Shown here in pieces: positions 31,230-48,764 of a stretch of 59,326 nt of DNA. Every line of letters starts with the position of its first letter. The stretch's first letter is position 1. This stretch comes from Opitutus sp. GAS368 (GTDB lineage: Bacteria; Verrucomicrobiota; Verrucomicrobiia; Opitutales; Opitutaceae). Below the pieces are notes generated by a model that was given only the letters and a program-made list of their open reading frames with translations, ran no database searches and was not told where the DNA came from. The translations under genes were made by a program, and so were the position numbers. Location of the stretch: positions 1 through 59,326 of the forward strand of contig CAMBVX010000003.1 of NCBI GenBank assembly GCA_945871085.1, in the 5' to 3' direction.

Positions 31230-32474
31230 ATGACGATGACTTCCCCCGCTTCCTTGAGCGCGCCCGTGCGCTGCTTTCTGCTCTCAATCGCACTCGTGCT
31301 CGTGGCATTCGCTCGAGCTGCCGCTCCGAGCGCGCCCGACACTACGGCCTATAAAAAACTGACGCTCGCGAAGGAGTTTTTCTGCGAGGGCGCGGCGTTT
31401 GGCGACTTCAACAAGGATGGCCAACTTGATGTCGTCTCCGGCCCTTATTGGTATGCGGGGCCGGACTTCACGAAGCGGCACGAGCTGTTTACTCCGTTCG
31501 TCTTCGATCCGCTGAAATACTCCGACAATTTTTTCGCGTTCGCGCACGACTTCAATGCCGACGGTTGGCCCGACGTGCTCGTATTGGGGTTTCCCGGCGT
31601 CGACGCCTCGTGGTATCAGAATCCCGGAGCCAAGGGTGGCCCGTGGCGCCGCTACGTGGCCGCGCTGCCCGTGGACAACGAGTCGCCGACCTTCGGGCAA
31701 CTGCTCGCCAAGGGCCCGCCGTCGATCGTGTGTATGAGTGCGGGCCGGCTCGGCTACTTCACACCCGAGCCTAAGGACCCGGCGCGCCCATGGACGTTTC
31801 GGGCGGTCTCGCCGGTGATGCCCGGCTGGCAACGCTTCACGCACGGCCTAGGTTTTGGGGATGTGAACGGCGACGGGCGCAATGACATTTTGGAAAAAGA
31901 CGGTTGGTGGGAGCAGCCCGCGTCGCTCGCGGGCGATCCGGTGTGGAAGCGGCATACGTTTCCCTTCAGCGCAAAGGGCGGTGCGCAAATGGTCGTGATG
32001 GATGTGAACGCTGATGGCGTGCCCGACGTGATCACCAGCAAGGCTGCGCACGGCTACGGGCTCTCGTGGTTCGAGCAGGTGCGGGCGGTCGACGGCGGCG
32101 GAAGCAGCTTCAAGGAACACGTGATTCTCGCGGAGAAGCCCGAGGAGAAAGTCGGCGGCGTGCAGTTTTCCCAGCTCCATGCGCTTGCGTTGAGCGATGT
32201 CGATGGGGACGGCCTGCCCGATATCGTGACGGGCAAACGGTGGTGGGCGCACGGGCCGACCGGTGATGCCGATCCGTCGGGCACGCCGGTGCTCTACGCG
32301 TTGCTCCTGCGCCGGGGAGCAAACCACACCGCCACCTACGAGCCGCGTCTGCTAGAAGCCACGACGGGCGTCGGCACGCAGCTCGTCGCGGCCGATGTGA
32401 ATGGCGACGGTCGCCCGGATTTTGTCGTGGGTAACAAGCGCGGCACAGCCGTGCTGCTGTCGCAGAAAAAATAA
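31230..32474 (+). CDS. Exported FG-GAP/VCBS-repeat propeller protein
   Basis: 414 residues from the ATG at 31230, which precedes a signal peptide (APVRCFLLSIALVLVAFARAAA). Repeated FG-GAP calcium-binding loops are visible: GDFNKDGQLDVVSG, HDFNADGWPDVLVLG, GDVNGDGRNDILEKDGWWEQP, DVNADGVPDVITSK, SDVDGDGLPDIVTG and ADVNGDGRPDFVVG. Such propellers bind ligands or proteins outside the cell. It is 61 nt upstream of a DUF1080/PVC protein on the same strand, so both probably handle the same extracellular substrate. Catalytic residues are not apparent. Confidence 0.85.
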   Translation: MTMTSPASLSAPVRCFLLSIALVLVAFARAAAPSAPDTTAYKKLTLAKEFFCEGAAFGDFNKDGQLDVVSGPYWYAGPDFTKRHELFTPFVFDPLKYSDNFFAFAHDFNADGWPDVLVLGFPGVDASWYQNPGAKGGPWRRYVAALPVDNESPTFGQLLAKGPPSIVCMSAGRLGYFTPEPKDPARPWTFRAVSPVMPGWQRFTHGLGFGDVNGDGRNDILEKDGWWEQPASLAGDPVWKRHTFPFSAKGGAQMVVMDVNADGVPDVITSKAAHGYGLSWFEQVRAVDGGGSSFKEHVILAEKPEEKVGGVQFSQLHALALSDVDGDGLPDIVTGKRWWAHGPTGDADPSGTPVLYALLLRRGANHTATYEPRLLEATTGVGTQLVAADVNGDGRPDFVVGNKRGTAVLLSQKK

Positions 32475-32535
32475 TCCCTCCGACCCGGAGTCTTTCCGCT
32501 GGACGCTCCACCGTTTGAATCACCCCCACGCTGCC

Positions 32536-35500
32536 ATGCCACGCCTTCACTGGTCTTCATTTTGCGTCGTAGTCGCCTGCGGCGTCGTTTCATCCGCGCC
32601 CGCCACTGCGCTCGCTGCCGCGCCTGCACCGCAGGCGATCTTCGATGGTAAAACGCTCGCCGGCTGGTCGGGTGGCGCCGAGTGGCGCGTCGAGGAGGGG
32701 GCGATCACCGGCGAGATCGCTGCGGGTGCGAAGCTCGCGAAAAACGAATTTCTTTACTGGCAGGGCGAGGTCGCCGACTTTGAACTCACGGCGGAGTTTC
32801 GCCTGACGGGGCCGGCCGATGCCAACTCCGGCATTTTATTTCGTTGCGAGCGCCTGCCCGACGGACTCGCCAAGGGGTATCAGGCCGACATCGATCTCGG
32901 AGCGCGTTATCTCGGAAACATCCATGAAGAGCGCGGGCGCAGCACGCTGGCACCCCGTGGCACGCGCCTTTCAGTCGCACCCGACGGCCGCCGTTGGACA
33001 GAAAAATTTGGCGAACCCGATGACTATCGCTCACTCGTCCGTCCGGCGCCGGCGTGGAATCACTACCGCGTCGTCGCCAGCGGCTCGCACGTTGAAGTGT
33101 GGCTGAATGGCACCCGAGTTTCCGTGATGGACGATCACCAAGCGGGTGCGGCGCGCCGCGCCGGCTTGCTCGCGCTCCAACTCCACCGTGGTGACGGCCC
33201 GATGAAGATTCAGTTTCGTAGTTTGCGGCTCACCCAACTGGGGCGCTCCGAACTGCCCGCAGTCGCCGTGAAGTCCCCGACCGCTCCCGTCGCGCCGCCC
33301 GTCATCGCGGCCCCGACGAATGCCGCCGACATCGGCAACTATCGCCGCAACGGCGATCCTCCGCTCAAGCGCGTCACCGGCGTCGATGACGTAACGCGCC
33401 TCATCTCGAGCCCGGTCCTTTGGCATCTGCGCGACAATCCTGCGAAACCCACAACGGTCGCCAACCCCGCCGCCCAGAAAGTTGTCCGTGGCATGAAGCT
33501 GGTGCACGGTTTCCAAGCCGAACTCATCGCCGCCGAACCCGAGCTCCACCAGCCCGTGGCGATGGCCATCGATGAGCGCGGTCGGCTCTGGGTGGCGGAG
33601 GCTTACGGCTATCCGAACCGCCAGCCGGAAGGGCAGGGGAAGGACCGCATCATTATCTTTGAGGACAAGGATGGTGACGGCGTTTTTGAAACGAAAAAAG
33701 TGTTCGTCGAAAAATTGAATCTTGTGAGCGGACTTGAGCTCGGGTTTGGCGGCGTGTGGGTCGGCGCTGCGCCGCATCTGTTATTCATTCCGGATGCGAA
33801 CCACGACGACGTGCCCGATGGCCCGCCGCAAGTGCTCCTCGATGGTTGGGGATTTCAGGATACGCACGAGACGCTCAATAGTTTCACGTGGGGACCCGAC
33901 GGCTGGCTCTACGGCTGCCATGGCGTATTCAGTCACGCGCTCGTCGGGAAGCCGGGCACGCCGGCGGCCGCACGTACGCCAGTGCGGGCGGCGGTGTGGC
34001 GCTACCATCCGACACGCCACGAATTTGAAGTCTTCGCGGCGGGCGGGAGCAACCAATGGGGCCTGGATTTCAACAGTGCGGGCCACCTGTTCATGACGCA
34101 TTGCCGAAGTTTCCACGGTGGCGGTGGCACGAGCTACGTGGTGCGCAATGGCCACTACTGGAATCAAGCGAACAATAGTTTCGCGCCGTTCATCTCGAAT
34201 CGCGGGCCCGACTTCGCGCCCGAGTTGAAAAACTTTCTCATGGCCTCCGCGCGTTACGACAGCGGCGAAGGCGGTGCCGGCAAACCTGGCACGACGGCGG
34301 TCTACGGCGGGCACTCGCACGTCGGCACGATGATTTACCTCGGCGACAACTGGCCCGACACGTATCGCGACCACCTCTTTACGCACAATCTCCACGGCCA
34401 TCAACTCAACCATCAGGTGAACGTCCGCATGGGCTCGGCTTACGAAACGTTTCACGCCGGCTACGATCTGCTCTTCGCGCCCGACCCGACCTACATGGCA
34501 GTCGACATCCAATACGGCCCCGATGGTGCCGCCTACGTGATCGATTGGGTCGACACGCAACATTGTCACAACCCGCGCGACGAACTCTGGGATCGCAGCA
34601 ACGGCCGCCTCTACCGCGTGGCGTGGGCCGCCACCTACAAGCCGACGAAAGTCGATCTCGCGGCGAAGTCCGACGCCGAACTTGCCGCGCTCCACACGCA
34701 CAAGAGCGAATGGTATGTACGCACCGCGCGGCGGCTGCTGCAGGAGCGGGCGGCGGGCCGGGCGCTCGATGCGGCGGCGCTCACTGCGCTGCGTGTCCAG
34801 GCGGGAGAAAAGTCCGGTGGTGATGTCGCGCAGCTCCGCGCGCTGTGGACGCTCCACGTCACGGCAAACCTGACACCGATCCAGCTCGCGGCCGCTCTCG
34901 CTCATTCGTCGGAAACGGTCCGGGCGTGGGCCGTCCAGCTCGGCACCGACGTGGGTGGAGCGCGACCGCCCTCGGTCGCAACCACCAACCAGCGACCGGG
35001 GGCGGTCGCGGTCCCAGCGGCCGATCTGCTACGGCTCGCTCAAAATGATCCATCCGCCCACGTCCGTCTCGCCATCGCGAGTGCCGTCCCGGCGCTGCCG
35101 CTCGCCGAGCGTTGGCCCGTGGTCGCGGCGCTTGCGAATCACCGCGAAGATGCCGCCGACCGCTATTTGCCGAAGATGACCTGGTTCGCCGCTGCACCTG
35201 CGGTCGCGAGCGATGTTCCCCGGGCGCTCGCATTGGCGGCGACGACGGCGCTGCCCACGCTCGCCGACTCCATTCGCTGGTTGGTTGCGCGCACACCGGC
35301 GGGACGTGACCAACTGGTGGCGAGCATGACGGGTCTCACCGAAGTGGCCGCGGCGCGCACGCTGCGGGTTCTGGCCTTTTCGCTAGAGAGCGAGGCGGGC
35401 TTGAAAATGCCGGCTGGTTGGGCGCAGATCGCGGCGCGTTTTTCCGCCGCGGGCGATCCGGCCTTGCGCGGCGCCTACGAACAACTCGCTGCGCTCTTCG

Positions 35501-36408
35501 GCGACAAGACCGTGCTGGTCGCAATTCGCAGCCGGCTGGCCGACACGGCGACGCCCCTCGTCGAACGCCGTCGGGCGCTCGACCTGCTCAAACGCGCGGG
35601 AGATACCGAATCCACGGCTGTGCTCGTGCGCCTCTTGGACGATAAAGATCTGCGCACGGCGGTGATTCCCCTTCTAGGAACAGCGGCCGATTCCGCAGCC
35701 GCGGCCGCAGGCCTGATCTCGCATTTCGCCGCGCTCAACGCCGCTGATCGCACGGCCGCGCTCGCTACGCTCACGAGCCGCCCGGTGCTGGCGCTGCCGC
35801 TGCTCCGCGCAGTTGCGGCCGGAGCGTTCGATAAGAACGTTCTCACCGCGCTGCACGCCCGTCAGCTCCGTAACTTGCAGAATGCGGAAGTGACTGCGCT
35901 GCTCGATCGCGTCTGGGGTAAGACGGCCGAGTCCTCCGCTGACCTGAAGACGACCGTGGCTCGACTGCGCCGGACCTACAACGAAGCGCCAGTTTGGTCC
36001 TACGATGTCGCCGCAGGTAAAAAAGTTTTCGAGCGCACCTGTGTGGCCTGCCATGCGAGCGAGGGTGCCACCGTCGGCAAACTCGGCCCGAACCTCAGCG
36101 GGACTTGGCGCAACGGTCTGGATTATTTTCTCGAAAATATTGTCGATCCCAACGCGGTGGTCGGTGCGGACTACCAACTCAATCTGATCACCAAGCGCGA
36201 TGGCACGGTGATCTCAGGGATGTTGGACAAGGAAACCGAGACGGCTTTGGTCGTCCGAACCATGGCCGAGACCGTCACTATTCCGAAGGCGGAGATCAAA
36301 GCTCGCGCGGTCACGCCGCAATCGCTGATGCCGCCCGGCTTGCTCGAAACGCTCCCCGAGCGCGAGGCCGTGGAGCTGTTGAAGTTTCTGACGACGGAAG
36401 TAAAGTAG
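32536..36408 (+). CDS. DUF1080 plus PVC-type propeller, HEAT repeats and CxxCH heme domain
   Basis: 1290 residues from the ATG at 32536 with a signal peptide (FCVVVACGVVSSAPATALA). Residues about 30-235 are a DUF1080 jelly-roll fold (AIFDGKTLAGWSGGAEWRV, NSGILFR, WNHYRVVASG). Some DUF1080 proteins act on 3-keto disaccharides. A PVC dehydrogenase propeller follows (MAIDERGRLWVAEAYGYPNR, FTWGPDGWLYGCHGVF, DIQYGPDGAAYVIDWVDTQH). HEAT-like repeats come next, then a C-terminal heme domain with CVACHASEG near residue 1170 and LNLITKRDGTVISGM. Fusing the two activities suggests coupled sugar oxidation and cleavage, which is inference. A short stretch near 34960-35020 looks repetitive. Confidence 0.88.
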   Translation: MPRLHWSSFCVVVACGVVSSAPATALAAAPAPQAIFDGKTLAGWSGGAEWRVEEGAITGEIAAGAKLAKNEFLYWQGEVADFELTAEFRLTGPADANSGILFRCERLPDGLAKGYQADIDLGARYLGNIHEERGRSTLAPRGTRLSVAPDGRRWTEKFGEPDDYRSLVRPAPAWNHYRVVASGSHVEVWLNGTRVSVMDDHQAGAARRAGLLALQLHRGDGPMKIQFRSLRLTQLGRSELPAVAVKSPTAPVAPPVIAAPTNAADIGNYRRNGDPPLKRVTGVDDVTRLISSPVLWHLRDNPAKPTTVANPAAQKVVRGMKLVHGFQAELIAAEPELHQPVAMAIDERGRLWVAEAYGYPNRQPEGQGKDRIIIFEDKDGDGVFETKKVFVEKLNLVSGLELGFGGVWVGAAPHLLFIPDANHDDVPDGPPQVLLDGWGFQDTHETLNSFTWGPDGWLYGCHGVFSHALVGKPGTPAAARTPVRAAVWRYHPTRHEFEVFAAGGSNQWGLDFNSAGHLFMTHCRSFHGGGGTSYVVRNGHYWNQANNSFAPFISNRGPDFAPELKNFLMASARYDSGEGGAGKPGTTAVYGGHSHVGTMIYLGDNWPDTYRDHLFTHNLHGHQLNHQVNVRMGSAYETFHAGYDLLFAPDPTYMAVDIQYGPDGAAYVIDWVDTQHCHNPRDELWDRSNGRLYRVAWAATYKPTKVDLAAKSDAELAALHTHKSEWYVRTARRLLQERAAGRALDAAALTALRVQAGEKSGGDVAQLRALWTLHVTANLTPIQLAAALAHSSETVRAWAVQLGTDVGGARPPSVATTNQRPGAVAVPAADLLRLAQNDPSAHVRLAIASAVPALPLAERWPVVAALANHREDAADRYLPKMTWFAAAPAVASDVPRALALAATTALPTLADSIRWLVARTPAGRDQLVASMTGLTEVAAARTLRVLAFSLESEAGLKMPAGWAQIAARFSAAGDPALRGAYEQLAALFGDKTVLVAIRSRLADTATPLVERRRALDLLKRAGDTESTAVLVRLLDDKDLRTAVIPLLGTAADSAAAAAGLISHFAALNAADRTAALATLTSRPVLALPLLRAVAAGAFDKNVLTALHARQLRNLQNAEVTALLDRVWGKTAESSADLKTTVARLRRTYNEAPVWSYDVAAGKKVFERTCVACHASEGATVGKLGPNLSGTWRNGLDYFLENIVDPNAVVGADYQLNLITKRDGTVISGMLDKETETALVVRTMAETVTIPKAEIKARAVTPQSLMPPGLLETLPEREAVELLKFLTTEVK

Positions 36409-37243: not shown

Positions 37244-39082
37244 TCAGTCGAAGGCCTGCTTCGAGTTGGTCTGGAGGAAGAGGAAGATTTCGTTGGCGAA
37301 GAGTTCGCCAAATTCAGCGCGTTTCTTTTCGCCCATGCCGGGGATGCCTTCCATGCGCTCGACGCGGTCGGGGTAACTGCGGGCCATCGCACGGAGCGTC
37401 GTGTCACCGAAAATAATATACGCGGGCACGCTGCGTTCGTCGGCGAGTTGACGGCGGAGCGCGCGCAGACGGTCAAAGAGAATTTCGTCGCACTCGACGT
37501 CGCCCTCGCGGCGCGTGACGCGTTTCGCTTTCGGGAGGTCGAGGGTTTTTGTTAGCGTGATCGGCGTGCGGGCACGGAGGATGGCCATGCCGGACTCGCT
37601 GACGTTGAGCGTGGCGTATTCGCCTTCGTCGATGCCGATGTAGCCGAGGCGCATGAGCTCGCGGCCGACGGAGGCCCAGGTGGGGCGTGAGACGTCTTTG
37701 CCGATGCCGTAGGTGGAGAGCTGCTGGTGCCCCCAGCGCGTGATCTTCTCGGTGTCGGCGCCGACGAGCACTTCGATGACGTGATTCAGACCGACGCCGA
37801 AGCGACTATTTTGCCGGATGCGGAAAACGCAGGAGAGGAATTTCTGCGCGACGAGGGTGCCGTCGTAGGTCTCGCGGGGCTCGGAGCAGTTGTCGCAGGC
37901 GGCGCAGTTATCGAGCGGAAACTTTTCTCCGAAATAGGTGAGCAGTTCGCCGCGGCGGCAGCCGGAGCTCTCGGCGTAGTGGACGATTTGGCGGAGCTGG
38001 GCGCGGGCGATATCCTGCTCCTGCTTGTTCGTGATTTCATCGAGGAAGTGCGTCTGCTTCGCGATGTCGCCGCCGCTAAAGAGGAGCAGGCAATCGCCGG
38101 GCAGGCCGTCGCGGCCGGCGCGGCCGGTTTCCTGATAGTAGCCCTCGATGTTTTTGGGGAGGTCGTGGTGGATGACCCAGCGGACGTTGGGTTTGTTGAT
38201 ACCCATACCGAAGGCGATCGTCGCGCAGATGATGCGAGTGTCATCGCGCAGAAACTGTTCCTGGTTTTCAGCGCGCTCGGTGGCAGTGAGGCCGGCGTGG
38301 TAGGGGCGCGCGGAAAAGCCGCGACCGGCGAGGGCTTCGGCGACACGTTCGGCGGTGGCGCGGCTGGCGCAATAGATGATGCCGCTCTCGGATTCGCGCT
38401 TGCGGACAAAATCGATGATCTGTTTTGCGGGCTGATCTTTCGGAATGACGCGGTAGGTGAGATTCGGACGGTTGAAGCTAGCGACGAAGGTCTGCGGGTT
38501 TTCCAACTTAAGGTGTTTGATGATATCGGTGCGGACGCGGCCCGTGGCGGTGGCGGTGAGCGCCATCATGGGAATGCCGGGGAGGGCGGTGCGGAGCTTC
38601 GCGAGCTGGCGATACTCGGGGCGGAAATCGTGCCCCCACTCGGAGACGCAATGCGCCTCGTCGATGGCGATGCACGTGACGTTCCACGTTTTTAAGTTCT
38701 CGACCCAGCCATCCAGCAGGAGGCGTTCGGGAGCGGCGTAGAGGAGTTTGTATTGGCCGCGATGGAGGCCGGAGAGACGCGCGCGGGCTTCTTTTTCTCC
38801 GAGCGTGGAGTTGAGAAACGTGGCGGCGACACCACTGGCTTGGAGTTGGTCGACTTGGTCCTTCATCAACGCGATCAACGGCGAGACCACGACCGTAAGA
38901 CCGGGGCGGGCGAGAGCCGGGAGCTGGAAACAAAGGGATTTACCGCCGCCGGTGGGTAGGAGGGCGAACACGTCTTTGCCTGCGAGGGTGGCGTCGATGA
39001 TGTCGCGCTGGAGGGGGCGAAATGTGGAGTAGCCGAAGGTGCGCTTCAGGAGCGCGGCGAGATCGGGCGTGGCGGCGGGCAT
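37244..39082 (-). CDS. recQ: ATP-dependent DNA helicase RecQ
   Basis: 3'-5' helicase acting in recombination and replication-fork repair. 612 residues from the ATG at 39082. Motifs: FRPLQRDII (motif 0), LLPTGGGKSLCFQLPAL (Walker A), AIDEAHCVSEWGHDFRPEY (DEAH plus aromatic loop), ALTATATGRVRTDII, ICATIAFGMGINKPNVR, and YYQETGRAGRDGLPG (motif VI). The zinc site uses CRRGELLTYFGE and CAACDNC. RQC follows (GHQQLSTYGIGKD) and a C-terminal HRDC domain (LRALRRQLADERSVPAYIIF). Complete, with no inserted repeats. Confidence 0.97.
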   Translation of the reverse strand: MPAATPDLAALLKRTFGYSTFRPLQRDIIDATLAGKDVFALLPTGGGKSLCFQLPALARPGLTVVVSPLIALMKDQVDQLQASGVAATFLNSTLGEKEARARLSGLHRGQYKLLYAAPERLLLDGWVENLKTWNVTCIAIDEAHCVSEWGHDFRPEYRQLAKLRTALPGIPMMALTATATGRVRTDIIKHLKLENPQTFVASFNRPNLTYRVIPKDQPAKQIIDFVRKRESESGIIYCASRATAERVAEALAGRGFSARPYHAGLTATERAENQEQFLRDDTRIICATIAFGMGINKPNVRWVIHHDLPKNIEGYYQETGRAGRDGLPGDCLLLFSGGDIAKQTHFLDEITNKQEQDIARAQLRQIVHYAESSGCRRGELLTYFGEKFPLDNCAACDNCSEPRETYDGTLVAQKFLSCVFRIRQNSRFGVGLNHVIEVLVGADTEKITRWGHQQLSTYGIGKDVSRPTWASVGRELMRLGYIGIDEGEYATLNVSESGMAILRARTPITLTKTLDLPKAKRVTRREGDVECDEILFDRLRALRRQLADERSVPAYIIFGDTTLRAMARSYPDRVERMEGIPGMGEKKRAEFGELFANEIFLFLQTNSKQAFD

Positions 39083-39259
39083 GGACCGGAGAACCTAGGC
39101 GTGCGAGTGCGGCGAGCGCACGGAAAAATTTTGCGGCATGGAGCGGAAGGTCGGGCGAGGCGAAAGTCCGTTCGAATGGCGTTGGGATAAGCCGAGAAAA
39201 GATGCCGGGCGCGCAGCTTGGCGTTGCCAATTCGGTGGGTGTGGCCGATGTAGAATGAC

Positions 39260-40675
39260 GTGGCTTCATTTCCTCCCTGCTCATTTCTGACCGGACGAAC
39301 TCTGCGGGTGGCGTGGTTGAGATGGTGGATATGCGGGTTGTTCGCGACGAGTGGAGTGATGGCCGCAGATTCGCGGCCGGTGGTAGGACCGGGGGCAACC
39401 AAGGAGGAAGTCCTCGATGCGTATGGTTGGCCGACCGGGCAAACGCAGGCGGGTGCGAAAGAGATTCTCACGTATCCGCAAGGCCGCGTGATTCTGGACA
39501 AAGGACGCGTCGAAGTCGTGGAATTTTCCATGAAGGTGCCGTGGCCGGCAGCGAAAGCACGGCCGGGCACCGCCGGCATTCCCAGCAGTGGAGATTCGTG
39601 GTTCACGAGTTGGCCGGAGGTTTTGCGCGAGGCGCAGCGACGGCAGGTGAGAATCTTGGCCGTGTTTACCGGTTCGGACTGGTCGCCACCGAGCAAGCAG
39701 TTTTTGACCGAGGTGGCCGAGGCCCCGGATTTCCTGACGGCGTTTTTAGGGAGTTTTGTGTTGTTAAAAATCGACTTTCCGACGCGGATCACGCAGCTGA
39801 AGGATTTGCGCGATCAGAATGCGGAGTTGCGGGAACGTTTTGAGGTGACGACGTATCCGGCGCTAGTCGTGCTGGAGTCCAACGGAGCCTTGGCGGCGCG
39901 GGTGGATTTGAATAAACTGCGGGCCGGCGATTCTTATCTTGTGCAGGTGGTGAGAGCAGTGCGCGAGGTCCGCAGCAGCTTGAGCCCTTCTCCCGGAGGG
40001 GGCCATGGAGCGCCCGGATTGGGTGCGGACAGCAAAGCCACCCCGTTGACGTTGAACGCCAAGGTTCTCGTACCGACGCCACCAGCTTCGGCTGCGGTCG
40101 GCAGCGCGACCGCAGCATCGCTGTCGTCGGCGGGGTTTGCGCTGACGTGGGGGCTAGGTGGAGGGTCGTTTTTGGCAGTGGTGTTGCTGTGGTTTTTTTG
40201 GCGGAAGCGGGCGACTGTGGTGAGTGACGTGACCACGGCGGCCCAGCGCGTCGCGGATGCGGCCAGCGGGGTGCCGTCCGTCGTGGATCTCGCCGAATGG
40301 TCACATGGTCGATTGCGTGCGGTCGTGGGGGCGCTGGCGCAGACCGATGGTTATCAGGTCGTCGTGAGGGCGGGCGGGAGTGAAGGCGATTTGTCGCTGG
40401 TGCGCACAAGCGAGGAGCGCGTGAGCGTGATTGTGATGTGTGCAGTTGCTGCTGCCGGACCGGTTTCGGCGAAGCGGCTGCGCGAGTTGTATGGCACGAT
40501 CACACTCGAGGAAGTGGGCACCGGGTGGTTTGTCGCGGTAGGAGGGTTTTCGGCGGAAGCGCGGGTCTATGCGCAAGAGCACGGCTTGTCGTTGATCGGC
40601 AAAGAGGGACTGAGGGAGCAATTGCGGGCGTTGACCGAGCGCGACCTCGCCCACGTCCTTGCGCGCAGAAAGTGA
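39260..40675 (+). CDS. Membrane protein: SmpA-like, degenerate thioredoxin and degenerate Mrr-like domains
   Basis: 471 residues. The GTG at 39260 is one possible start; a GTG at 39308 would begin nearer the signal segment (WWICGLFATSGVMA). Residues about 45-90 resemble an SmpA/BamE-type fold (GATKEEVLDAYGWP, GRVEVVEFS). Residues 130-220 are a thioredoxin-like domain (ILAVFTGSDWSPPSKQF, FEVTTYPALVVLESNG) whose CxxC is replaced by S-P-P-S. A membrane helix lies near 293-313. The cytoplasmic end (about 345-460) resembles an Mrr-type endonuclease fold (GDLSLVRTSEERVSVIVMC, GWFVAVGGFSAEARVYAQ), but the usual QxK is absent. Both catalytic sites look dead, so a binding or sensing role is more likely. 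Domain calls are by pattern only. Confidence 0.65.
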   Translation: MASFPPCSFLTGRTLRVAWLRWWICGLFATSGVMAADSRPVVGPGATKEEVLDAYGWPTGQTQAGAKEILTYPQGRVILDKGRVEVVEFSMKVPWPAAKARPGTAGIPSSGDSWFTSWPEVLREAQRRQVRILAVFTGSDWSPPSKQFLTEVAEAPDFLTAFLGSFVLLKIDFPTRITQLKDLRDQNAELRERFEVTTYPALVVLESNGALAARVDLNKLRAGDSYLVQVVRAVREVRSSLSPSPGGGHGAPGLGADSKATPLTLNAKVLVPTPPASAAVGSATAASLSSAGFALTWGLGGGSFLAVVLLWFFWRKRATVVSDVTTAAQRVADAASGVPSVVDLAEWSHGRLRAVVGALAQTDGYQVVVRAGGSEGDLSLVRTSEERVSVIVMCAVAAAGPVSAKRLRELYGTITLEEVGTGWFVAVGGFSAEARVYAQEHGLSLIGKEGLREQLRALTERDLAHVLARRK

Positions 40676-46771: not shown

Positions 46772-47710
46772 TCAGTTTACCACCTGAAACTCAAACGGCG
46801 TGAACACTTCGCTGCCCCCCAAGTTTACCTGCGCCCAGATAACATACCTCCCCGCGCGGGGAATGGTGATTTTGAAATTCAACTCCGGGCGCAACGCATC
46901 CGGTTTTTTATCCAAATCAACCTCGGCGGGATGCAAGTGCGCGAAGCCACTCCGCACCTCGTCAAACGCCACGAGATGCGCCAACGCACCCATCACCGGT
47001 TCCATCGGCACAGCCCCGCCGTCCGCGCGGGTCACCGAGAATTTCAAATCCGTCGGTTGCCCCGCTCGCAACGGTGCCACCACGGGGACCAATTCAAACG
47101 CATAAGTCCGCCGCTCGTCGTCGGACCACCCCAGCCCGTTCGCACCACGTTCCGCGGCCACCCCAGCGACCACCGCGTCGGCGCTCGCGTACAATCCCCG
47201 TCCCGTCGCCAGCGGGGTGAAGTCAGCAAACACCCGATACGCCCCGCCCAACCGCGGCGTCCACGTCACGGTCCACTCACCTCGCGTCCGCCCCGGCTCG
47301 GGATGCACGTGCTGGTAGTCGGTCAACGAAGGATCGACGATTAACAGGTGCAGCTTTCGCGTGTGCGCCACAAGCAGATCCTGCGGTTCGATGAATTTCC
47401 CGCTCGACGTTTGTAATACCACCACCCCCGTGGCCTCGCGGCCGGCCATCGGAGCCACCTCCCAGCGCGTGGTCATCGCGACTGGCGACGGCACCGCCAC
47501 CACCGGGATGAACTGCGGATTTGACGGATCGCAAAATTCGATCGCGTTCTGCCCACCCACGCGAAAATCCATGTGATTCAGATTCGTGCCCGTCGGCAGG
47601 AATCGCATGCCCCAAAACACCGCGAGCGCCCCCGACGTGATCCACGCAATTTGCTTCCATTGTTTTGATTCCAGCGCCGCCGTCGCTGTCGTCACCTTCG
47701 CTGCGCTCAC
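46772..47710 (-). CDS. Membrane-anchored protein with HxHPE and HLHP motifs, possible copper-site protein
   Basis: 312 residues from a GTG at 47710 that overlaps the SCO gene's TGA as GTGA, so the two are translationally coupled. One N-terminal membrane helix (IAWITSGALAVFWGMRFL) precedes a beta-rich exported region. Visible are KLHLLIVDPSLTDYQHVHPEP, MGALAHLVAFDEVRSGFAHLHP and VIWAQVNLGGSEVFTPFEFQV, an Ig-like ending. The paired His motifs (HVHPE, HLHP) resemble metal ligands. Position beside CusF-SCO and the oxidase genes suggests copper handling in oxidase assembly; this is inference. No named family recognised. Confidence 0.7.
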   Translation of the reverse strand: MSAAKVTTATAALESKQWKQIAWITSGALAVFWGMRFLPTGTNLNHMDFRVGGQNAIEFCDPSNPQFIPVVAVPSPVAMTTRWEVAPMAGREATGVVVLQTSSGKFIEPQDLLVAHTRKLHLLIVDPSLTDYQHVHPEPGRTRGEWTVTWTPRLGGAYRVFADFTPLATGRGLYASADAVVAGVAAERGANGLGWSDDERRTYAFELVPVVAPLRAGQPTDLKFSVTRADGGAVPMEPVMGALAHLVAFDEVRSGFAHLHPAEVDLDKKPDALRPELNFKITIPRAGRYVIWAQVNLGGSEVFTPFEFQVVN

Positions 47711-48678
47711 TTCCGCATCCTCGCTACAAATTCCTTCGGCTCCCACGCACTGCCGTCTGCGCGGTGCACGATCTTTCCGTCTGGTCCGATCAGCAACGTC
47801 GTGAGCGTGTGTTGCAAGAGGTCGCCCTTGAGTTCCGCGATCACTCCAAACTGCGTCAGTAAATCCCGCACCGCCGCCTCCGGTCCGGTGAGCAATGAAA
47901 AATTCTCCGTGTCGATCCCTCGCGCCACCGCGTACTCCTTCAAGACTCCGGGCGTATCGTAGGCCGGCTCGAGCGTGATCGATACAAATTCAATTTCCTT
48001 GGCCTCCGCTTCTGCCGCCATTTTCTGCGCGGCGATCATCTTGGTGGTCGAAGCCGGGCACATCGTCACGACCGGACAACGGGTGAAAATGAAATTCATC
48101 AGCACCATCTTCCCGCGAAACCGCCCGCTCTGCACCACGCGTCCCTCTTGGTCGAACAGCGCGAAATCCGGGATCGCCTCGCCCACCTCGCGATACGCAT
48201 TTTTGCCGCGCGTAAACGTATCTTGCCGCAACTGCATCGCACCGGCCGCGACCGCCGACGTCGTCGCGGTGTCGTTTGGCCAGATTTTCTCCAAGCGAAA
48301 ATCGCCGTCCTTGCTCGGGATCATCTCTGCCCGGATTTTCTGCCCCGGCTTCGCCCCGGCCGCATCGCCGCTCGAAACCAAAAACTCCATCGTAATCGCC
48401 GGCATGTAGCCCTTGATCTCGTCATGAAACACGACGAGCACTTTTTTCGCCAAGTCCACCGAGACGATCTCTCCGGTTAGCGCATAACGTTCCGCCGCCA
48501 CCACCTTTACCGTCGTTGCCCCCTCCGTCTCCCCCTGACCCGGGACCGACGACACCGGCGCAGTCGTGGTTGTCTTGCCCACGTCTTTCACCTGCACCGA
48601 CTTTTCCGCTGGTGAGCAGGCCACGAGGCCGAGCGACCATGTCGCACCGACCCAGATGACGGCAGCATAAGATTTCAT
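47707..48678 (-). CDS. CusF-like / SCO1-SenC fusion lipoprotein
   Basis: 323 residues from the ATG at 48678 with a lipobox (LGLVAC, C21). Residues about 60-130 resemble a CusF-type periplasmic copper-binding domain (YALTGEIVSVDLAKKVLVVF, KGYMPAITMEF). The rest is SCO1/SenC: IPDFALFDQEGRVVQ, MNFIFTRCPVVTMCPAS (two Cys separated by five residues, a longer spacing than the usual CxxxC) and DLLQHTLTTLLIGPDG with the copper-binding His. It should deliver copper to the CuA site of CoxB. The two modules joined in one protein could hand copper directly from storage to insertion. It is divergent from ctaA. Confidence 0.85.
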   Translation of the reverse strand: MKSYAAVIWVGATWSLGLVACSPAEKSVQVKDVGKTTTTAPVSSVPGQGETEGATTVKVVAAERYALTGEIVSVDLAKKVLVVFHDEIKGYMPAITMEFLVSSGDAAGAKPGQKIRAEMIPSKDGDFRLEKIWPNDTATTSAVAAGAMQLRQDTFTRGKNAYREVGEAIPDFALFDQEGRVVQSGRFRGKMVLMNFIFTRCPVVTMCPASTTKMIAAQKMAAEAEAKEIEFVSITLEPAYDTPGVLKEYAVARGIDTENFSLLTGPEAAVRDLLTQFGVIAELKGDLLQHTLTTLLIGPDGKIVHRADGSAWEPKEFVARMRK

Positions 48679-48764
48679 CACACTACGGATTCGCTCGCAG
48701 ATAACTTTGTCAAAGGGTTTGCGGACGACAGTTCCCGACCTTCTTCTGACCGGTCAACTTACTC

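Follow-up and report, generated by a model that had tools for sequence, protein, structure and literature searches.

The chlamydial periplasmic oxidoreductase DsbH (2ju5) and the C-terminal domain of DsbD represent an exported thioredoxin fold of the DsbH/DsbD-gamma type, the Mrr_cat (PF04471) proteins, AF1548 and MspJI are restriction-endonuclease-like, and degenerate PD-(D/E)XK domains, which have the nuclease fold without its active site, presumably retain nucleic-acid binding according to PMC1189080. A gene in the window (the whole stretch of DNA analysed, 59,326 nucleotides from Opitutus sp. GAS368, family Opitutaceae) joins both folds in one membrane protein. Its thioredoxin part has the same fold as DsbH, but the protein differs from DsbH in lacking the active-site cysteines, in being fused to other domains and in its attachment to the membrane; the NCBIfam DsbH model NF043050 matches it with an E-value of 2.9e-14, but at 53.5 bits, below the equivalog cut-off of 190. 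The Mrr part has its fold in common with AF1548 and MspJI, whereas it lacks the QxK motif and is membrane-tethered, and in this respect it resembles the degenerate PD-(D/E)XK domains. Against the NACHT-associated inactive restriction endonuclease family (PF22722) the protein scores 21.2, below the cut-off of 27, and the partner domains differ.

Two groups of proteins from the same bacterial family are also close. Membrane Mrr proteins (e.g. loci L045, L047 and L213) also carry the Mrr fold behind a helix, but have no thioredoxin domain; in L045 and L047 a Zn_ribbon_Top1 domain scores above its cut-off. The nearest thioredoxin relatives are exported SmpA-thioredoxin proteins encoded beside recQ (L109, L088, L089, L091, L093 and L135), and all six have intact cysteines, no helix after the thioredoxin part, no Mrr part and a gene convergent to recQ; the one at L135 (genome G030) reads in two frames. 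Literature searches found no published description of a fusion such as the one in the window.

Domain architecture and catalytic sites of the fused protein

An earlier note on this DNA had described the gene product as a membrane fusion of a SmpA-like, a degenerate thioredoxin and a degenerate Mrr-like domain. The 471-residue open reading frame is present as first described, and Pfam matches, a hydrophobic helix and 18 full-length relatives all agree with a membrane fusion (Table 1); since these relatives have the same architecture, it is more than a product of chance. The GTG at 39260 is merely the first possible start of the gene. Alignment of R16 in 17 of the 18 relatives points to a start no later than codon 15, and the true start codon, although uncertain, probably lies between 39260 and 39302.

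Table 1. Positions of the fused gene, its parts and the adjoining elements in the window
Feature	Position	Strand	Remarks
Gene for the SmpA-like / pseudo-thioredoxin / transmembrane / pseudo-Mrr protein	39260..40675	+	471 aa counted from the first possible start
Signal peptide region, LRVAWLRWWICGLFATSGVMA	39302..39364	+	From sequence and R16 alignment; cleavage near residue 35 judged by eye
BamE/SmpA-like periplasmic domain, residues 40-96	39377..39547	+	Most conserved part; family support weak
DsbH/Thioredoxin_7-like fold, residues 111-236	39590..39967	+	Motif DWSPPS at residues 140-145; cis-Pro P200 retained
Former CxxC site, now S142-P-P-S145	39683..39694	+	From sequence and alignment of relatives
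Transmembrane helix, residues 295-313	40142..40198	+	From hydropathy and charge only
Mrr-type PD-(D/E)XK fold, residues 336-466	40265..40657	+	Catalytic Q and K lost, D377 retained
Promoter-like element	39218..39252	+	Palindrome TTGGCGTTGCCAA at 39218-39230; common to part of the clade only
recQ helicase gene	37244..39082	-	DEAD, Helicase_C, RecQ_Zn_bind, RQC and HRDC domains; divergent neighbour in most carriers

Both main folds remain recognisable, as the note had held. Pfam places Thioredoxin_7 at residues 114-205 (E-value 1e-8, 35.6 bits, cut-off 27) and Mrr_cat (PF04471) at residues 345-453 (E-value 2.5e-11, 44.2 bits, cut-off 21). Structure prediction of the two halves, for which AlphaFold2 was given 12 aligned sequences (the window protein and 11 relatives), returned each fold, with a mean pLDDT of 82.6 and a pTM of 0.60 for the periplasmic half and of 88.5 and 0.81, respectively, for the cytoplasmic half. 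In these predicted models, the best solved match of the thioredoxin part is DsbH (Z 17.8, rmsd 2.1 Å over 124 residues), and that of the Mrr part is AF1548 (1y88; Z 14.7, rmsd 2.5 Å over 111 residues), with MspJI (4f0p) matched at Z 12.4 and rmsd 3.7 Å over 141 residues.

The site of the thioredoxin part reads GSDWSPPSK, with SPPS standing for CxxC, and the absence of cysteine from this motif extends to all 18 full-length relatives. Serine occupies both former cysteine positions in 17 of them. Fifteen read DWSPxS and G108 reads DWSGPS; in G123 and G119 the decay of the motif has gone further. No periplasmic cysteine is conserved among the 18, and in 14 not a single one is left. The residues of the groove, by comparison, persist: W141 is found in 16 of 18 full-length relatives, and Y199 and P200 are found in all. 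The QxK positions of the Mrr part read M-C-A in the window protein, which keeps D377. The sequences read comprised all 18 full-length forms and that of genome G014, which has no thioredoxin part, and in these 19 rows the aspartate is present in 15, the glutamine in one and the lysine in none.

The helix that separates the two halves is preceded by no lysine or arginine within 15 residues and followed by three within the next 15, and since the positive charge sits behind it, an inside location of the C-terminus, i.e. of the Mrr part, is favoured. A helix after the thioredoxin part, or at the corresponding place, is predicted in all 19 rows, with more lysine and arginine behind it than before it in 17 and equal numbers in G104 and G123. 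With a median pI of 5.4 and a net charge of -2 (19 rows), the pseudo-Mrr domain is slightly acidic, and DNA binding is not favoured by its charge; the corresponding values are 5.65 and -2 for Mrr relatives with an intact site (10 rows) and 8.0 and +1 for other degenerate ones (21 rows).

The SmpA-like label of the N-terminal domain is the weaker one. The domain is modelled by AlphaFold2 as a helix followed by four strands, and the matches of a fold search with the periplasmic half were filled by the thioredoxin domain. The window's own segment has no Pfam match to BamE/SmpA (PF04355); among 16 family members this family was matched in five (best E-value 0.04) and DUF2845 in three. Comparison with PDB profiles gave weak matches to the beta-lactamase inhibitory protein and BamE (E-values 0.03-0.2) and to a designed-looking entry, BA5 (E-value 0.008). 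The sequence-based kinship of this domain to BamE/SmpA is weak.

Distribution and origin of the fusion

In a survey of 252 genomes of the window's family, in which the best four to six candidates per genome were scored, the full-length form was found in 18 genomes of six genera, with open frames of at least 441 amino acids, and in none of the other 234, many of which are drafts (among the matches listed). A scan of genome contigs with the single protein gave zero matches; the alignment-based scan yielded 12 loci, 11 full-length and one partial, all assigned to Opitutaceae, Opitutae or Verrucomicrobia. A viral origin was considered and set aside, as no relative was found in viral contigs. Among the matches listed for 384 genomes drawn evenly from the wider class, full-length forms all belong to the window's family, and what matches in rows from elsewhere is the thioredoxin part.

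The gene is patchily distributed even among close relatives. Genus mates G001, G003, G004 and G008 have recQ but no fused gene among the matches listed; in G001 the DNA similarity to the window stops at 39159, and the next 4.7 kb read contain no such gene. In G006 the fused gene lies in pieces, in three frames, beside recQ. The genome of the window itself holds a second copy (L043, 1-2290, contig C378), 80% identical over the C-terminal part, which begins inside the thioredoxin part and adjoins a DDE transposase gene. Retirement does occur in single genomes, as in G006 and in the C378 copy. The gene is thus dispensable, and its living copies look kept.

The search for homologues with intact residues, proposed in the earlier note, was successful for both halves. 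CPPC, CPAC, CGPC or CxWC is present in sixteen thioredoxin relatives that lack an Mrr part; the SmpA part is recognised in 14 of the 16 and a hydrophobic helix after the thioredoxin part in none. Thirty-one Mrr relatives were read: a hydrophobic helix precedes the Mrr part in 26, the SmpA part can be recognised in 21, and 23 carry a CxxC within the last 60 residues. The full D-QxK is retained in ten of the 31, which makes a nuclease ancestor likely, and the SmpA part is recognised in four of these ten (G012, G018, G133 and G239).

In the midpoint-rooted thioredoxin tree the fused proteins form one clade (support 99/98, 18 rows) within a group (100/100) that holds ten CPPC, CPAC or CGPC rows, and five CxWC rows and one CGPC row fall outside that group. 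The Mrr tree likewise unites them in one clade (100/99, 19 rows) and places G014 next to G114 (96/89), so that G014 has probably lost its thioredoxin part. The SmpA tree, at 56 columns too short to resolve, groups the fused rows with two SmpA-thioredoxin rows and one Mrr row (support 80). The fused clade has a single origin and, as each half has relatives whose residues are intact, it is read as the product of two lineages that were joined and both deactivated. In the simplest history, a SmpA-thioredoxin gene fused once with a transmembrane-Mrr tail; on the stem, cysteine changed to serine and QxK was lost, and a zinc ribbon was lost as well.

Another 16 rows of membrane Mrr proteins group in a clade of their own (100/100; L044, L049, L050, L052, L207 and others). 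It has H, N or Q for the aspartate and H, V, I or L for the lysine (e.g. PVHLNIS...VQCHA) and retains the C-terminal CxxC in 10 of 16 rows, its site being either dead or differently metal-binding; one of its members lies on contig C4 of the window's genome (L044, 8179-9864, minus strand). At L040 (9360-10574, minus strand), a relative without the thioredoxin domain keeps the SmpA part, the transmembrane helix and the Mrr part, and lies between alkZ and recQ.

Linkage to recQ and the shared intergenic region

In 17 of the 18 full-length carriers recQ shares the contig of the fused gene and lies no more than about 5.3 kb away, divergent from it in 16 and in tandem with it in one (G005); in G002 the two genes are on different contigs. 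Other neighbours recur in at most seven of 21 carrier loci, and the annotated neighbour genes differ between these loci. Missing neighbours are weak evidence at L121, L122, L123, L186 and similar loci, because these are short or end at contig ends. The CxxC thioredoxin relatives lie beside recQ in six of 16 cases, all convergent and all inside the group of ten nearest the fused clade. The genomes of the other four members of that group gave no recQ match (E-value 1e-150 with the window's RecQ, among the matches listed), and no recQ was found within the 3.6-19 kb read around the six outer CxxC rows; for the CxxC relatives of G085 and G158, the match lies 8.4 kb from recQ and on another contig, respectively (among the matches listed).

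The gene for an alkZ-like glycosylase (PF06224) served as a yardstick for this linkage. It is found upstream of recQ in 29 of 85 non-carrier loci, with a gap of at most 150 bases (open reading frames as extended) in 17 of the 29, and also in seven carrier loci (six full-length and G014), where the fused gene lies between alkZ and recQ, at L097 together with further open reading frames. Among the 18 carriers alkZ was found in 15 (E-value 1e-40) and lies with recQ in six of them, so that linkage to recQ is 17/18 for the fused gene versus 6/15 for alkZ (Fisher p 0.0015, in a sample of related genomes that are not independent). There is thus moderate evidence for a functional link of the fused gene to recQ; slow change of gene order explains a part of the association, which owes something to descent, as the genomes are related and 29 of 85 non-carrier loci preserve the order alkZ-recQ.

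The earlier note had also proposed a survey of the neighbourhood for defence genes. Apart from RecQ none was seen among eight neighbour proteins of the window and the carrier loci, seven of which had no PADLOC match at an E-value of 1e-3. RecQ matches 29 PADLOC models of RecQ-like helicases (best DpdF, E-value 3.7e-231); its RQC and HRDC domains, and the presence of a related gene in 198 of the 252 family genomes (E-value 1e-150, among the matches listed), are the grounds for reading it as an ordinary RecQ. The Mrr fold itself gave just weak matches to PDC-S02 (E-values 7e-4 and 3.5e-3) and no match to a known system. A defence island was rejected as the main reading, the neighbours annotated being recQ, pyruvate dehydrogenase, alkZ, GH127, a TonB-type receptor and an AraC-type regulator.

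Several neighbouring arrangements are recorded in their own right. An alkZ-like DNA glycosylase gene stands upstream of recQ in 36 of 106 loci (e.g. L128, L140 and L171), likely as a DNA-repair operon of the family; a literature search on AlkZ-RecQ found no mention of recQ among the papers listed. Proteins matched by the SmpA-part profile alone, with no Pfam domain, are encoded beside recQ in G181 (L138, 3968-4975, minus strand) and G089 (L187, 5926-6825, minus strand). Elsewhere in the window, a 1335-residue protein (32401-36408, plus strand) combines a 3-keto-disaccharide hydrolase domain, DUF7133 and a cytochrome c domain, and a gene at 47707-48681 (minus strand), which encodes a CusF copper-binding domain followed by a SCO1/SenC domain, adjoins COX15-CtaA and UbiA family genes.

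Between the starts of the fused gene and recQ lies a promoter-like element, in which a -35-like TTGCCA (39224-39229), overlapping a palindrome, is separated by a 17-base spacer from a -10-like GATGTA (39247-39252). Upstream of the 19 genes (the 18 and G014), GCGTTGCCAA was found in seven versus a mean of 0.01 in letter shuffles, GGCGTTG in ten versus 0.61, and TTGNNN-N17-GATN(T/A)A in six versus 0.03, all three patterns having been picked after inspection and the shuffles ignoring relatedness. The palindrome TTGGCNNNGCCAA is present exactly or with one mismatch in nine of 19, seven have nothing within two mismatches, and about half of the upstream stretches have either no such element or a poor one. 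As the operator of a regulon TTGGCNNNGCCAA was rejected: with 18 exact sites in the genome versus 13 for the reversed control it is not clearly enriched, and it is therefore retained only as a local part of the promoter-like element. The LexA box of Verrucomicrobia is a palindrome other than TTGGCNNNGCCAA. A literature search found no paper on the LexA motif of the window's family.

Selection on the gene and its possible role

The dN/dS ratio over all codons is 0.20-0.41 (Nei-Gojobori, 11 pairs); by part it is 0.03-0.26 for the SmpA-like domain and 0.11-0.38 for the thioredoxin part (eight pairs each), 0.14-0.42 for the Mrr part (11 pairs), 0.3-1.8 for the linker (one pair not computable) and an erratic 0-2.1 for the 25 codons of the transmembrane helix. 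All values are rough: dS, at 0.65-1.5, is near saturation, and the truncated or broken copies of C378 and G006 enter three of the 11 pairs, the G006 piece lying partly in another frame. Even so, they speak against drift. The combination of dead domains, apparent selection and adjacency to recQ suggests repurposing as a binding or signalling protein. We regard a maintained transmembrane pseudo-enzyme adaptor, which binds without catalysis and is linked to RecQ, as the leading reading, with a probability of roughly 0.45. On this reading, an exported SmpA-thioredoxin protein with a CPPC-type ancestor would have been joined, within the window's family, to the transmembrane-Mrr part of a membrane nuclease-like protein, with the loss of both active sites. 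The periplasmic half would most likely still bind a protein or peptide through the thioredoxin groove (W141, cis-P200), with no disulphide exchange, and the cytoplasmic half, no longer cutting, would most likely still bind DNA or a partner from DNA repair; the linkage suggests that this half is concerned with RecQ. In a process that also involves RecQ, the protein may act across the inner membrane as a tether, a recruiter or a signal transmitter; a sensor role, as put forward in the earlier note, is possible. We infer the ligands, the direction of signalling, any contact with RecQ or DNA and the lack of activity from these features.

The same note had offered a retired defence protein as its other suggestion, and as stated this finds no support. 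A one-time Mrr-type restriction protein, anchored in the membrane and now decaying into a pseudogene, would account for the missing catalytic residues, the broken copies in G006 and on C378, the patchy presence among the family genomes and the weak match to the candidate system PDC-S02 (E-value 7e-4). It is nevertheless improbable in view of the long open frames in 18 genomes of six genera, the low dN/dS of the Mrr part, the promoter-like element kept in part of the clade, the adjacency to recQ, eight neighbour proteins among which RecQ is the sole match to defence models, and a second domain in the same chain that was deactivated separately. Persisting enzyme activity is harder still to credit: other residues would have to stand in for QxK or CxxC, and D377 (15 of 19) and the conserved E361, R408 and E409 (16, 18 and 16 of 18) might offer a substitute site, but the glutamine survives in one of 19 rows, the lysine in none, and the periplasm-facing part has no conserved cysteine.

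That the envelope half alone matters, with the SmpA-pseudothioredoxin part acting as a redox-independent periplasmic chaperone or docking protein and the Mrr fold left as a vestigial cytoplasmic plug, is unlikely, although conservation is highest in the SmpA-like and thioredoxin parts (the mean frequency of the top residue is 0.74 and 0.64, versus 0.58 for the Mrr part) and the nearest CxxC relatives have neither a helix after the thioredoxin part nor an Mrr part. Against it, the Mrr part too has a dN/dS well below 1, with C394, R408, W423, F430 and A434 invariant in 18 of 18, and G014 has lost the thioredoxin part but retained the SmpA part, helix and Mrr part beside recQ. Regulation through hetero-oligomers is common among pseudo-enzymes, and the protein might so control a paralogous membrane Mrr protein: at least one further match to the Mrr part occurs in 15 of the 18 carriers among the matches listed (for example in G000 on C4 (L044), G002, G033, G066, G108 and G114). 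This proposal too has poor prospects, as none of the eight paralogues read (G000, G002, G011, G033, G066, G108 twice and G114) has the full D-QxK, one of those in G108 having D, Q and R for K, and G029, G065 and G155 match the gene itself only (E-value 1e-5, among the matches listed). A weightier objection, though in our judgement one that probably fails, concerns RecQ: the linkage could be no more than gene order passed on by descent together with a common intergenic region, without any functional tie to DNA repair. Gene order is slow to change here, the alkZ-recQ pair being kept in 29 of 85 non-carrier loci, and the gene is divergent from recQ with the promoter-like element between the two starts; yet in the same genomes it stays with recQ more often than alkZ does (17/18 against 6/15), and one tandem and, in the CxxC relatives, six convergent arrangements exist too.

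The pseudo-enzyme adaptor invites a more specific view, which we hold as doubtful, that the double pseudo-enzyme couples the envelope to RecQ-dependent DNA repair. The redox-dead DsbH-like domain would sense or hold an envelope protein, and at the membrane the cutting-dead Mrr domain would hold DNA or repair proteins. Enzymes that have lost their activity are usually noticed singly; here two unrelated ones stand in one membrane-spanning chain, and because living relatives exist for each half, the order in which catalysis was lost can be tested. If the coupling is true, the state of the envelope and the repair of the chromosome would be linked through two deactivated enzymes, and if the link to recQ is functional, it would become testable in bacteria whether the envelope positions or informs DNA-repair proteins, a question that is rarely asked.
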